From positions 1-64,000 of the forward strand of contig CAMNSS010000009.1 in the NCBI GenBank assembly GCA_946555345.1: a stretch of DNA of 64,000 nucleotides, read 5' to 3'. The translations under genes and the position numbers were made by a program. The notes beneath the pieces were generated by a model. The model worked only from the letters and a program-made list of their open reading frames with translations, was not told the origin of the DNA and did no database searches. This document shows positions 21,953 through 48,667 of this stretch, piece by piece. Positions within the stretch are counted from its first letter, which is position 1; each line of letters begins with the position of its first letter. The DNA is from an uncultured Eubacterium sp. GTDB lineage: Bacteria > Bacillota > Clostridia > Peptostreptococcales > Anaerovoracaceae.

Positions 21953-22339
21953 TCACTTCCCCCGCATTTCCTCTTCATAAAAAAACGTCAGCATTTCCTG
22001 CAAATCATCCGCAGACAAATCGCAAGCCCTGGATAAACTGATAATCTCTTTCATATGCACTTCTATCTTTTTCAAATATTCTTCTTTGATACGTTCCGTG
22101 TTTTTCTCAGCGACGAAGCTGCCTTTCCCTGTCATGGTGACAATAAATCCATCGCGTTCCAACTCCTCATAAGCGCGTTTCGTCGTAATGACGCTGATGC
22201 GAAGCTCCTTCGCCAAAAGGCGCATAGACGGCAGCGCCTCCCCAGTTTTAAGTACTCCAGTCAATATCATTTCCCTAATCTGCGCACTAATCTGATCGTA
22301 AATAGGCTTCCCGCTGGAATTGCTGATGATAATATCCAC
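21953..22339 (-). CDS. GntR-family transcriptional regulator (YtrA type)
   Basis: A 128-residue regulator. The winged helix covers KPIYDQISAQIREMI through GEALPSMRLLAKELRISVIT to GFIVTMTGKGSFVA; a short C-terminal helical tail replaces the usual effector domain, as in the YtrA subgroup. The GTG at 22339 is preferred: AGGAGGAAGGAG lies just upstream, and the in-frame ATGs further up fall on the operator or before that site. It likely represses itself and the ABC transporter by binding the palindrome at 22361-22385. Confidence 0.88.
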   Translation of the reverse strand: MDIIISNSSGKPIYDQISAQIREMILTGVLKTGEALPSMRLLAKELRISVITTKRAYEELERDGFIVTMTGKGSFVAEKNTERIKEEYLKKIEVHMKEIISLSRACDLSADDLQEMLTFFYEEEMRGK

Positions 22340-22360
22340 ACTGCTCCTTCCTCCTTTCAT

Positions 22361-22385
22361 ATTGTATATATTTATTATATACAAT
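22361..22385 (-). promoter_or_regulatory. GntR/YtrA operator palindrome
   Basis: ATTGTATATA (22361-22370), 5 bp, then TATATACAAT (22376-22385): a perfect 10-bp inverted repeat about 20-45 bp upstream of the regulator start, with TATA-like content that probably overlaps the promoter -10. Confidence 0.7.
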
Positions 22386-22588
22386 ATCCACGCTATGTCA
22401 AGAGCGGTTTTAATTAAAATTTCTAAATGTTATTTTTGCATAGGCTTAGGCTTTTAGCCGCTGTTTCAAAATACGGTCAAATTTTGGGGCAGTATTTTAA
22501 ATACAATATTAATATGCGGGATGAAAAATATACTCATTCTGATTGCGTCTTGCCAGGCACAAACGCAACCAACTTAAAGTAAAGCGGG

Positions 22589-22954
22589 TTTCACCGTTGC
22601 GGCGATCAAAACCACGCCAAACGGGGAACAACGGTGAACAATGAACATAAAATTGATGCTGTAACATGAAAACCAGAACGCCCAAACGCCTATGCCAATC
22701 CTGCTGGCGGCGTTAACATAGAAATTTCACCGTTTGGGCATGGACGAAAAGAGAAAACGGTGAAACTTGCGGAGCAAGAAGCACAAAATAAACGCCAGCC
22801 ATATACCGTCCATGCCAGATTTCACCGTTTTACACCCTAATAACAACTGAAACAGTGAAACGAATAAAACAAAAAACGCAGAATAATTGCCAGGCAAACG
22901 CTCCCATACTAAATTTCACCGTTTCGAGTGCCAAAACCACACAAAACGGTGAAA
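22589..22954. repeat. array of 41-bp paired-motif units (TTTCACCGTTT / AAACGGTGAAA)
   Basis: Four units: 22589-22629, 22725-22765, 22820-22860 and 22914-22954. Each has an 11-bp left arm, 19 variable bases and an inverted right arm, spanning exactly 41 bp. Unit 1 has a two-mismatch right arm and an extra good arm 10 bp further (22629-22639). Units 2 to 4 start 95 and 94 bp apart. Linkers and inner 19-mers differ. The same unit recurs at 47202-47336. It is not CRISPR: arms are too short and alternate in orientation. Confidence 0.85.
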
Positions 22955-23003: not shown

Positions 23004-23789
23004 CTACACATACTGAATATCCGCTTTATTCACCCGCTGCGGGATGTGCAAATAATCCTCGCCTTCAGGATATCCGAGCATAAATGCGCCATAAAAGCTG
23101 TTGTCCTCCGGGAGTTCAGGAAGAAGCGCCTTGATTTCCGCCAGGTTATTGCACATCCGCTTCAGATATCCAGCCCAGCACGTCCCCACGCCCTTTGCCT
23201 GCAAATAAAGCTCCGCCGTCGCCATGGCAATCGCCGTATCCGTCTCCGGGGAAATCGCGCGATCCCACGCATACGCCAAAAGGAGCGTCTTTGCATTTCC
23301 CATCACCACGTTATTGCCGATGGCAAACTCCGAAGCAATTTCAGGCGATACACCGGTTTTTTCCACGCAATCCAAAATGCAATCCATGATCTTATTAATG
23401 GTGTCCTGCGATTCTATGATGATCCACTTCGTCGGATGCTGGTTCTTCGCACTAGGCGCCCAGGCCGCCAGCCCCAACGCTTCTTCGATGATGCTCCTTG
23501 GTACCTGCTCCTCCCGAAAATGCCTGTAAGAGCGGCGCATCAAAATATGATTTTTGAGGTCCTTGTCAAAATCATCTCCCAGAACGGGTAACCCGCCTTC
23601 CAATACCGCTGGATTCTTCCTATACGTGATCGCGCCTGTCGGGCATACCGCACCGCAATGCATACACTTCAAACAGACCTTCCGTTTCGCCCGCTGCGGC
23701 TTCCCATCAACCTCCTCCAGCACGGTAAACGGACATACCGCAAGGCAGGCTTTGCATCCAATACATTTTTCTCGATCGACTTTTATCAT
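23004..23789 (-). CDS. nitroreductase fused to an N-terminal 2[4Fe-4S] ferredoxin domain
   Basis: A 261-residue redox protein. Two 4Fe-4S motifs start it: CIGCKACLAVCP (residues 8-19) and CLKCMHCGAVCP (about 38-49). A nitroreductase-family flavoprotein domain follows, with RRSYRHFREEQVP and AAWAPSAKNQHPTKW for FMN binding. Such fusions in anaerobes move electrons from ferredoxin clusters to FMN and a small substrate, which is unknown. ATG 23789 follows GGAGGG; an in-frame start at 23840 has no such site. The gene ends 50 bp from the paired-motif array. Confidence 0.92.
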   Translation of the reverse strand: MIKVDREKCIGCKACLAVCPFTVLEEVDGKPQRAKRKVCLKCMHCGAVCPTGAITYRKNPAVLEGGLPVLGDDFDKDLKNHILMRRSYRHFREEQVPRSIIEEALGLAAWAPSAKNQHPTKWIIIESQDTINKIMDCILDCVEKTGVSPEIASEFAIGNNVVMGNAKTLLLAYAWDRAISPETDTAIAMATAELYLQAKGVGTCWAGYLKRMCNNLAEIKALLPELPEDNSFYGAFMLGYPEGEDYLHIPQRVNKADIQYV

Positions 23790-23855
23790 ATTTCCCTCCG
23801 TAACTGCATTTCGTTCATTTTTACTACAATTCGATTCCAACGTACCGCTTCATTT

Positions 23856-47201: not shown

Positions 47202-47336
47202 GTTCACCGTTCGAGCAATCATTATGAGTCCAAACGGTGAAATTCGCATGGAAAAAGCATAAAACCGTTCCCCGCAAAAAGTTCTTTGCATCAACTTTCA
47301 CCGTCCTGATTCCCGAAAATAAGCCGAACGGTGAAA
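47202..47336. repeat. second array of 41-bp paired-motif units
   Basis: Units 47202-47242 and 47296-47336, each exactly 41 bp (arms GTTCACCGTTC/AAACGGTGAAA and TTTCACCGTCC/GAACGGTGAAA around 19 variable bases), starting 94 bp apart. Same design as 22589-22954. It ends about 80 bp before the ahcY stop codon. Confidence 0.8.
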
Positions 47337-47416: not shown

Positions 47417-48667
47417 TTACAACTGCCAGCTATCCAGGTAATTCTTCTGATCCTCCGTCAAGGTATCAATTTCGATCCCCCAGGCAGCGAGCCTTCTGCG
47501 CGAAATCACATCGTCGATTTCGCCGGACACGTCAATCACCTTGTTTTCCAGCTTCCCATGATTTTCCTTAATGTACATAGCCGACAAAGCCTGTACCGCA
47601 AAGCTCAAATCCATGATTTCTGCCGGATGGCCGTCCGCCGCCGCAATGTTCGCCAGCTTTCCTTCGCCGATGACATTAACCATCTTCCCATTTTCCAGCG
47701 TATAGCCGGTAATGTTTGCACGGGTTTCCTTCGAGGAAACCGCCGCCGCTTCCAGCCCAGCCATGTCGATTTCCACATTGAAATGCCCAGCATTGGCCAA
47801 AATCGCCCGATCCTTCATTTTCAGCATATGGTCCACGGTAATCGTGTGCTTGCAGCCCGTCGCCGTGACGAAAATATCGCCATAAGGCGCAGCCTGCTCC
47901 ATCTTCATCACATCATAGCCATCCATCTTCGCTTCCATCGCCTTAATCGGGTCGATTTCCGTAACGATGACCCTTGCACCCAGCGCCGATGCCCGCATCG
48001 CAATCCCTCTGCTGCACCAGCCGTAGCCCACCACCACGACTGTCTTGGATGCCACGATCAGGTTCGTATTGCGCATGATGCTGTCCCAGACCGACTGGCC
48101 CGTGCCGTACCTGTTGTCGAAGAGATGCTTGCACTTCGCATCGTTGACAGCCACCATCGGGAATTTCAAAACGCCTTCCCGCTCCATCGCCTTGAGCCTG
48201 ATTACGCCCGTCGTCGTCTCCTCGCAGCCGCCCATAACCGCTTCCGCCAGATCCGGCCTCTTGTTGTGCAGCATTTCCACCAAATCGCCGCCGTCGTCGA
48301 TAATGATATGCGGCTTGTGTTCGAGGCACATTTCGATATGCTTCGCATATTCTTCATCGGTCGCCCCGTGATATGCAAATACCGCAAGGCCTGCATCCGC
48401 CAAGGCTGCCGCCACGTCATCCTGCGTCGAAAGCGTGTTGCTGCCGGTCACGGACATCTGTGCGCCGCCTGCTGCCAGCACCAGGCAAAGATACGCCGTC
48501 TTCGCTTCCAAATGCACCGACAAGCTGACCCGAAGCCCCGCAAACGGCTTTTCCTTTTTAAAATCCTCTTCCAGCCCGGAAAGCAAAGGCATATTGTTCT
48601 TGACCCATTCAATCTTCTGATGGCCTGACGGCGCTAATCCAATATCCCTTACATCGTAATTTTTCAT
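47417..48667 (-). CDS. ahcY: adenosylhomocysteinase
   Basis: A 416-residue NAD-dependent enzyme that splits S-adenosylhomocysteine to adenosine and homocysteine. Marks: LSVHLEAKTAYLCLVL, DDGGDLVEMLH, ETTTGV, VVGYGWCSRGIA (NAD loop), NAGHFNVEID and the C-terminal SWQL. The short length and sequence resemble Thermotoga/archaeal types. AAGGAG lies 9 nt before ATG 48667. It is transcribed alone; array 2 follows it downstream. Confidence 0.94.
   Translation of the reverse strand: MKNYDVRDIGLAPSGHQKIEWVKNNMPLLSGLEEDFKKEKPFAGLRVSLSVHLEAKTAYLCLVLAAGGAQMSVTGSNTLSTQDDVAAALADAGLAVFAYHGATDEEYAKHIEMCLEHKPHIIIDDGGDLVEMLHNKRPDLAEAVMGGCEETTTGVIRLKAMEREGVLKFPMVAVNDAKCKHLFDNRYGTGQSVWDSIMRNTNLIVASKTVVVVGYGWCSRGIAMRASALGARVIVTEIDPIKAMEAKMDGYDVMKMEQAAPYGDIFVTATGCKHTITVDHMLKMKDRAILANAGHFNVEIDMAGLEAAAVSSKETRANITGYTLENGKMVNVIGEGKLANIAAADGHPAEIMDLSFAVQALSAMYIKENHGKLENKVIDVSGEIDDVISRRRLAAWGIEIDTLTEDQKNYLDSWQL

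Follow-up and report, generated by a model that had tools for sequence, protein, structure and literature searches.

The usual explanation for dispersed repeats in bacterial genomes is that transposases copy hairpin sequences. MITEs are non-coding, dispersed and bounded by inverted repeats, and phased operator or centromere arrays, which occupy one or a few loci, present a series of protein sites on the same side of the helix. The arrays described here have phasing in common with the last of these, but their copies are instead dispersed in some twenty places. They also resemble the REPINs/RAYT system, which the available part of PMC3116915 presents as short inverted pairs, intergenic and specific to a species, that are scattered through a genome in several sequence flavours and form clusters beside a candidate mobilising gene. 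According to the same part of PMC3116915, however, the REP is itself palindromic, whereas the arms here are of 8-11 bp, are not self-complementary and change mostly without compensation. The arms are thus no REP stem-loops, although two inverted copies do make up a dispersed intergenic unit, as in a REPIN. The units here are set at helical turns, and the word 'helical' is absent from the text of PMC3116915. BIMEs and the GTAG and CGTC REPs, as far as the available part of PMC3733652 describes them, are likewise intergenic inverted-repeat dimers, with spacers mostly of 20-100 bp; unlike the present arrays, they are hairpins that bear a tag, their stems measuring 5-13 bp and their loops 2-20, and no phased four-unit layout was found in that part of the paper. 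CRISPR repeats differ as well, since the units here vary inside, have only short inverted arms in common and include no identical direct repeats of about 24-47 bp. A literature search of limited scope brought up no description that we recognised as such arrays. We file the element as a variant among the dispersed bacterial repeats, possibly forming a class of its own. What stays constant in it is the helical geometry, whereas its letters differ from one species to the next.

The window, a 64-kb stretch (64,000 nucleotides) from an uncultured Eubacterium sp., had previously been interpreted from its letters alone, and this sequence-only reading had placed four exact 41-bp units at 22589, 22725, 22820 and 22914. 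All four are present at these positions with 19 bp between their arms, and their starts are 136, 95 and 94 bp apart. Units 2 (22725..22765) and 4 (22914..22954) are indeed exact in both arms, whereas unit 3 (22820..22860) bears one mismatch in its right arm and unit 1 (22589..22629), identified by reading the sequence and by the unit scan, is degenerate, with one and two mismatches. The extra arm reported near unit 1 was found again by direct reading: it is a right-type arm, AACGGTGAAC, at 22630..22639, about one helical turn beyond the right arm of that unit. A second cluster, absent from the earlier interpretation, is composed of two units, at 47202..47242 (two mismatches and none) and, 94 bp from the first, at 47296..47336 (two and one). 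Single-arm matches with at most one mismatch number 9 in the window, as compared to a mean of 1.65 and a maximum of 5 in 100 shuffles.

Cluster 1 lies between two genes of the minus strand, both named by eye. A ferredoxin-nitroreductase-like gene (23004..23840) has its 3' end 49 bp from the cluster, and a gene for a GntR-type regulator (21953..22384, with TTG as the listed start) is located on the opposite side. A 12/12 match to a sigma-70-type promoter precedes the latter gene on the minus strand at 22374..22401, about 190 bp from the cluster. A perfect inverted repeat, ATATTGTATATA-N5-TATATACAATAT, lies over this promoter at 22359-22387 and is probably the own operator of the GntR-type regulator; a similar sequence precedes the GntR-type gene in three congeners (G009, G005 and G031). 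Next to cluster 2, an adenosylhomocysteinase-like gene, also named by eye (47417..48667, minus strand), ends 80 bp from the outer end of the cluster.

A genome-wide search, which the sequence-only reading had proposed, revealed many further copies, and their spacing is not freely variable. In the window's own genome (G000, 2.85 Mb, 96% complete), the pattern TTTCACCGTTT-N19-AAACGGTGAAA, with up to three mismatches over 22 positions, occurs 42 times against 0 for the backwards-read control, and it occurs in 0 of 48 congeners, many of which are incomplete drafts (68-100% complete). The unit scan was applied to 27 sources, the window included, fetched around exact-arm sites, with an arm gap of 18-20 bp and at most four mismatches. 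Twenty of these sources hold units, 49 of them in 21 clusters of one to four, after removal of one overlapping artefact unit in L053 from an initial 50; the remaining seven, although all were chosen for exact arms, yielded no unit. A unit at C3:1137, with three mismatches, is among the matches of the genome search and lies outside the fetched stretches. The initial claim that the arms are always 19 bp apart is true of 41 of the 49 units, the gap being 18 bp in seven and 20 bp in one.

All 21 clusters in this genome are intergenic; the open frames that overlap them are of 63-102 codons, and one of 114 codons overlaps a cluster edge by 31 bp. The genes beside the clusters are varied and mostly housekeeping-like by eye, without a common theme, and tandem, convergent and divergent gene gaps are occupied alike. 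Some pairs of clusters are similar outside the arms as well, with borders at the outer arms, as between L052 and the last two units of cluster 1. The intergenic setting, together with the perfect promoter match near cluster 1, would be expected if the units were ordinary operators through which one transcription regulator governs a set of genes. We regard this as improbable, given the lack of a common function among the neighbours as judged by eye, the use of gene gaps of all three orientations, and the fact that array neighbours mostly differ between species. Common array neighbours were looked for between G000 and two congeners, G031 and G066, and this candidate was set aside: blastp returned two weak matches, at 24-25% identity, and a strong one, at 58% over 184 aa, three in all.

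Another motif, TATGTAAA (mostly TATGTAAAC), is found inside or less than 100 bp from four of the 21 clusters (L022 at 1429 and 1682, L050 at 2091 and 2323, L055 at 2879, and L058 at 2234 and 2528) and at none of the other 17. These four are exactly the clusters with long unit spacing, 217-281 bp, and the motif may be the sign of a second subtype, to which a further factor would bind.

The distances between neighbouring units in G000 are 79, 92, 94-95, 103-105, 114-116, 126, 136, 217, 239, 250 and 281 bp, close to whole multiples of 10.4 bp save for 79 bp (7.6 turns), with 92 bp (8.85 turns) fitting poorly. When 43 spacing classes from 14 arm-by-genome groups were pooled, the best period was 10.40 bp (R=0.845, phase offset 0.32 bp), and 0 of 20,000 uniform draws subjected to the same period scan reached this R. 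Spacings up to 160 bp (39 values) gave R=0.851 at 10.50 bp, with 0 of 5,000 draws as high. Fitted singly, the groups gave 10.35 bp for G000, 10.60 bp for G031, 10.70 bp for G066 and 11.55 bp for G072/G005, and for every group none of 5,000 draws was as strong; on distinct values only, the best period of G000 shifts to 11.20 bp, and the 147.6 bp spacing in G072/G005 amounts to 14.19 turns. The input, hand-typed from the scans and averaged into classes, had a single value for every spacing class in a given arm-by-genome group; G063 was entered as 84 (157 minus 73, for one decayed unit), and the 103 of G034 was left out, on the reading that it covers two steps and an intervening unit that escaped detection. 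Since spacings are partly inherited within a family, the classes are not independent, and the phasing is to be read as strong rather than as an exact probability.

With successive units at whole helical turns, bound proteins would face the same side of the DNA. In the mechanism that we propose, each unit (36-41 bp, with two inverted arms) would be bound by a symmetric protein or a pair of dimers, and the bound proteins would stack or loop into one complex, whatever role that complex may have. The elements, commonly of four units with a-b-a spacing, have spread among intergenic places and would be retained by selection on the arms; the arm letters, and presumably the recogniser too, change between species under a constant layout. 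We consider it likely that the array is a dispersed, lineage-specific, non-coding repeat, the working parts of which would be phased double-stranded protein sites with arms under selection. To judge from the sequences, its layout suggests a protein-binding repeat of a kind about which little is known. The suggestion, made from the window alone, of paired protein sites on one helical face accords well with the phasing of about 10.4 bp and with the conservation of the arms between two species, from which we infer the binding.

On the other hand, the alternative put forward with it, an RNA hairpin of constant size, fares poorly. As RNA hairpins, the units would act as termination, stability or processing signals, and in RNA folding of three units, with both strands taken for one of them, all outdid most of their shuffles (z -3.0 to -5.8). 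However, the arm deviations are mostly one-sided: 35 are one-sided, one is compensated and one affects both sides without pairing in 41 G000 units; the corresponding numbers are 12, four and one in 75 G031/G066 units, and 11, zero and zero in 24 G072/G005 units. In G031/G066, compensation is nevertheless seen at 4 of 17 deviating arm positions. Since the arm changes are mostly uncompensated, an RNA hairpin is very unlikely; moreover, RNA gives no ground for the helical phasing of whole units, and the window from 22300 to 47500 (25,201 bases) contains no Rfam match at gathering score. The rejection of CRISPR and of a simple REP in the sequence-only reading agrees with the features tested here.

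Several congeners keep the layout with different arms, and by the author's count there are 13 arm types, in units of 36-41 bp. Four-unit arrays are common and their spacing follows a-b-a, such as 73-94-73 bp. The TTTCGACGT arms, first encountered in G031 by a motif-free search, make up 56 units in G031 and 22 in G066, in arrays spaced 73-(84, 94 or 105)-73; in this genome search, which allowed up to two mismatches per unit, stray matches were limited to one each in G014, G032, G006 and G005, against up to three in the control. The TTTCAGCG arms, found in G063 by a motif-free search, also form 13 units in G006, with spacings of 72-94-73 and 83-83-83, and elsewhere the search gave three in G032 and one each in G061, G009 and G004, with 0 in the control. 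Pairs of TTTTGCAGTC number 14 in G072, five in G005 and 0 in the other 47 genomes, and their units are spaced by 135-137 or 147-148 bp, that is, by 13 or 14 turns. In G023, motif-free searching brought out two arm types, TCYATRAA and TTTCAGCT; a TCYATRAA locus spaced 42-72-62-72 predicted others, and 42-72-62 was found in 300 kb newly fetched from this genome, while the pattern had 0 occurrences in the 1.25 Mb examined of six other genomes. Further spacings are 62-105-63 in G030, 40-135-40 and 41-135-41 in G065, and 72-72-72 in G031, and additional arm types turned up near rpn-like genes and, in G030, next to the adenosylhomocysteinase gene. No arrays were seen in samples of 145 kb of G022, 200 kb of G008 and 195.5 kb of G024. 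From such constancy of geometry one would predict a DNA-binding protein that is oligomeric and whose specificity changes fast, and the variety of arms would offer many natural site and protein swaps for testing.

In two gene gaps there is an array in each of two species, with arms that differ between them. The gap between the nitroreductase-like and GntR-type genes carries cluster 1 (22589-22954) in G000 and two pairs with TTTTGCAGTC arms in G005 (L100), and the stretch downstream of the adenosylhomocysteinase gene carries cluster 2 (47202-47336) in G000 and a different-armed array in G030 (L093). Such shared gaps may be hot spots; alternatively, the sites may have been inherited while their arms changed.

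When TTTCNNCG, the commonest arm shape, was scanned across the order, 92 of 393 sampled genomes had a match. High counts were confined to the genus of the window (55 in G031, 25 in G000, 23 in G066 and 12 in G006), and the rest, at 0-4, were like the backwards control; the sample excludes G063, G005 and G072, and the scan concerns this one arm shape. A phage origin was also considered and rejected, as TTTCGACGT pairs occur in two viral contigs, with one unit each, and TTTCACCGTT pairs in none. In a scan of the genome_contigs set for the exact pair, the sole match comes from Streptomyces caatingaensis, where one unit inside a long GC-rich hairpin looks unrelated.

Homologous copies of the element lie at non-orthologous places. 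In G031/G066, 5 of 33 alignments of at least 120 bp between non-orthologous copies span the whole element, both ends lying no more than 4 bp from the outer arms (as for L184 with L193 and L190 with L194), and most of the others cover part of it; the alignment of L181 with L181b runs past both element ends, as part of a larger duplication. The G072/G005 copies are similar throughout, and their likeness mostly ends at the outer arms, although several share some of the right flank. In this respect the elements resemble MITEs, in which terminal inverted repeats bound homologous copies, and they might be relics of an internally deleted transposon, with the outer arms as its terminal inverted repeats and the inner arms as extra transposase-binding sites. 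The helical phasing would then reflect the assembly of the transposase at the time of copying. The copies that are alike exactly between their outer arms, their dispersal beside unrelated genes and the symmetric look of the element halves, with a-b-a spacing, would all be accommodated. However, the inner arms recur at helical steps, which is not a known feature of MITEs, and no target-site duplication stood out in 43 elements of three groups (17, 10 and 16), which old copies could have lost. In the stretches examined, no gene lies between two half-elements, and an autonomous partner with the same ends was not seen in the fetched stretches, which are part of each genome.

In three orthologous array pairs of G031 and G066, identity is 213/216 in the arms, 217/276 in the inner segments, 297/361 in the linkers and 498/606 in the flanks, so that non-arm identity is 79-82% and the arms differ from the linkers with p=4e-11. 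In the most diverged pair, L145/L192, the arms are identical at 72/72 positions and the inner segments at 50/92. The three pairs are those with an array in both species, a choice that favours conserved arms; since up to two mismatches per unit would have allowed far more than three differences in 12 units, this choice alone is an unlikely explanation. Selection keeping the arms in place is the best reading of these sequences. Arms conserved so far beyond the linkers are unlike what dead copies would retain, and we hold the MITE-like origin to be possible but on balance doubtful. The preferred reading remains that of phased double-stranded protein sites.

A fourth pair, L188/L196, was left out of the arm comparison because G031 retains one unit there (L188, 4832-4872), as against four in G066 (L196, 6217-6497); one against four units is as expected from recombination between outer units. 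In addition, the inner segment of L145 unit 1 matches that of L192 unit 4 better inverted than neighbours do (17/23 against 7).

As for the recogniser, relatives of the rpn genes (COG5464, PMC10327210) lie near several arrays in this genus. The available part of PMC10327210 states that the ends of the rpn region are variable, that there is no evidence of autonomous transposition and that the preferred DNA substrates of rpn nucleases are an open question; no mention of such arrays was found in that part. In the genus, PF12784 (Rpn) gave 33 matches, 30 of them with a locus, and arrays are present at 8 of these 30 loci, from five genomes, as compared to 12 of 487 same-genus windows of about 3.3 kb (p=4e-6), the control windows being unmatched for accessory DNA and at least 8 of the 12 array-bearing ones representing arrays already in the described set. 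A stricter array detector gave 7 of 30 loci against 10 of 487 windows. An Rpn profile built from 20 such proteins matches 18 of 49 genomes overall and 8 of the 9 array genomes found independently of rpn (p=0.0007, in a comparison of related genomes uncorrected for kinship and with rpn fragments counted as matches). One Rpn-family gene of G031 is flanked by two arrays, and another comes after an array of nine units; at L181, the two complete arrays between which an rpn-like gene is located are duplicates of each other, 92% identical.

Such co-location, with arms that differ between rpn loci, would fit arrays that are the cognate sites of Rpn-superfamily (PD-(D/E)XK) nucleases, each rpn lineage having its own arms in a pairing like that of REPIN and RAYT. 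Several genomes speak against this pairing. G000, G066 and G063 have no PF12784 match, for which reason Rpn, put forward as a general partner on the basis of G031, had been marked down before co-location partly revived it. The sole match of the Rpn profile in G000 is a divergent YhgA-like gene (E=8.8e-5; Pfam Transposase_31 at 18.4 bits, with a cut-off of 21), and its 3.6-kb locus contains no array. G066 and G063 have only Rpn fragments with stops, even though the arms of G066 are conserved, the profile has no match in G005 (74% complete), and arrays are present at 0 of 9 plasmid rpn loci of other taxa, fetched from the 44 listed. We therefore take the link between Rpn and the arrays as a lead, short of a result: that the arrays are the cognate sites of these nucleases is a tentative proposal which we rate as rather unlikely, and a member of the Rpn nuclease superfamily, though the best guess for the recogniser, is an equally speculative candidate. 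It is similarly doubtful, if conceivable, that four-site phased double-stranded arrays in many species of one genus, with a sequence co-evolving with an Rpn-superfamily nuclease, constitute a new class of element. Were this co-evolution true, rpn genes would gain the cis-sites that they seemingly lack, in a double-stranded counterpart of the REPIN-RAYT system, and a common family of defence nucleases would be tied to sites on the host chromosome.

Two rpn-related loci have features of their own. In G000 (contig C16), the YhgA-like gene lies directly behind a frame that, by eye, resembles the end of a restriction-enzyme subunit (L352, 2-1270 and 1414-2319). In G031 (contig C54, L306/L179), an rpn-like gene and a shorter second copy stand in tandem, each followed by an array of GTCTCCAAA with a 72-bp period, and ahead of the first of the two genes stands an array of nine units whose arms belong to a different type.
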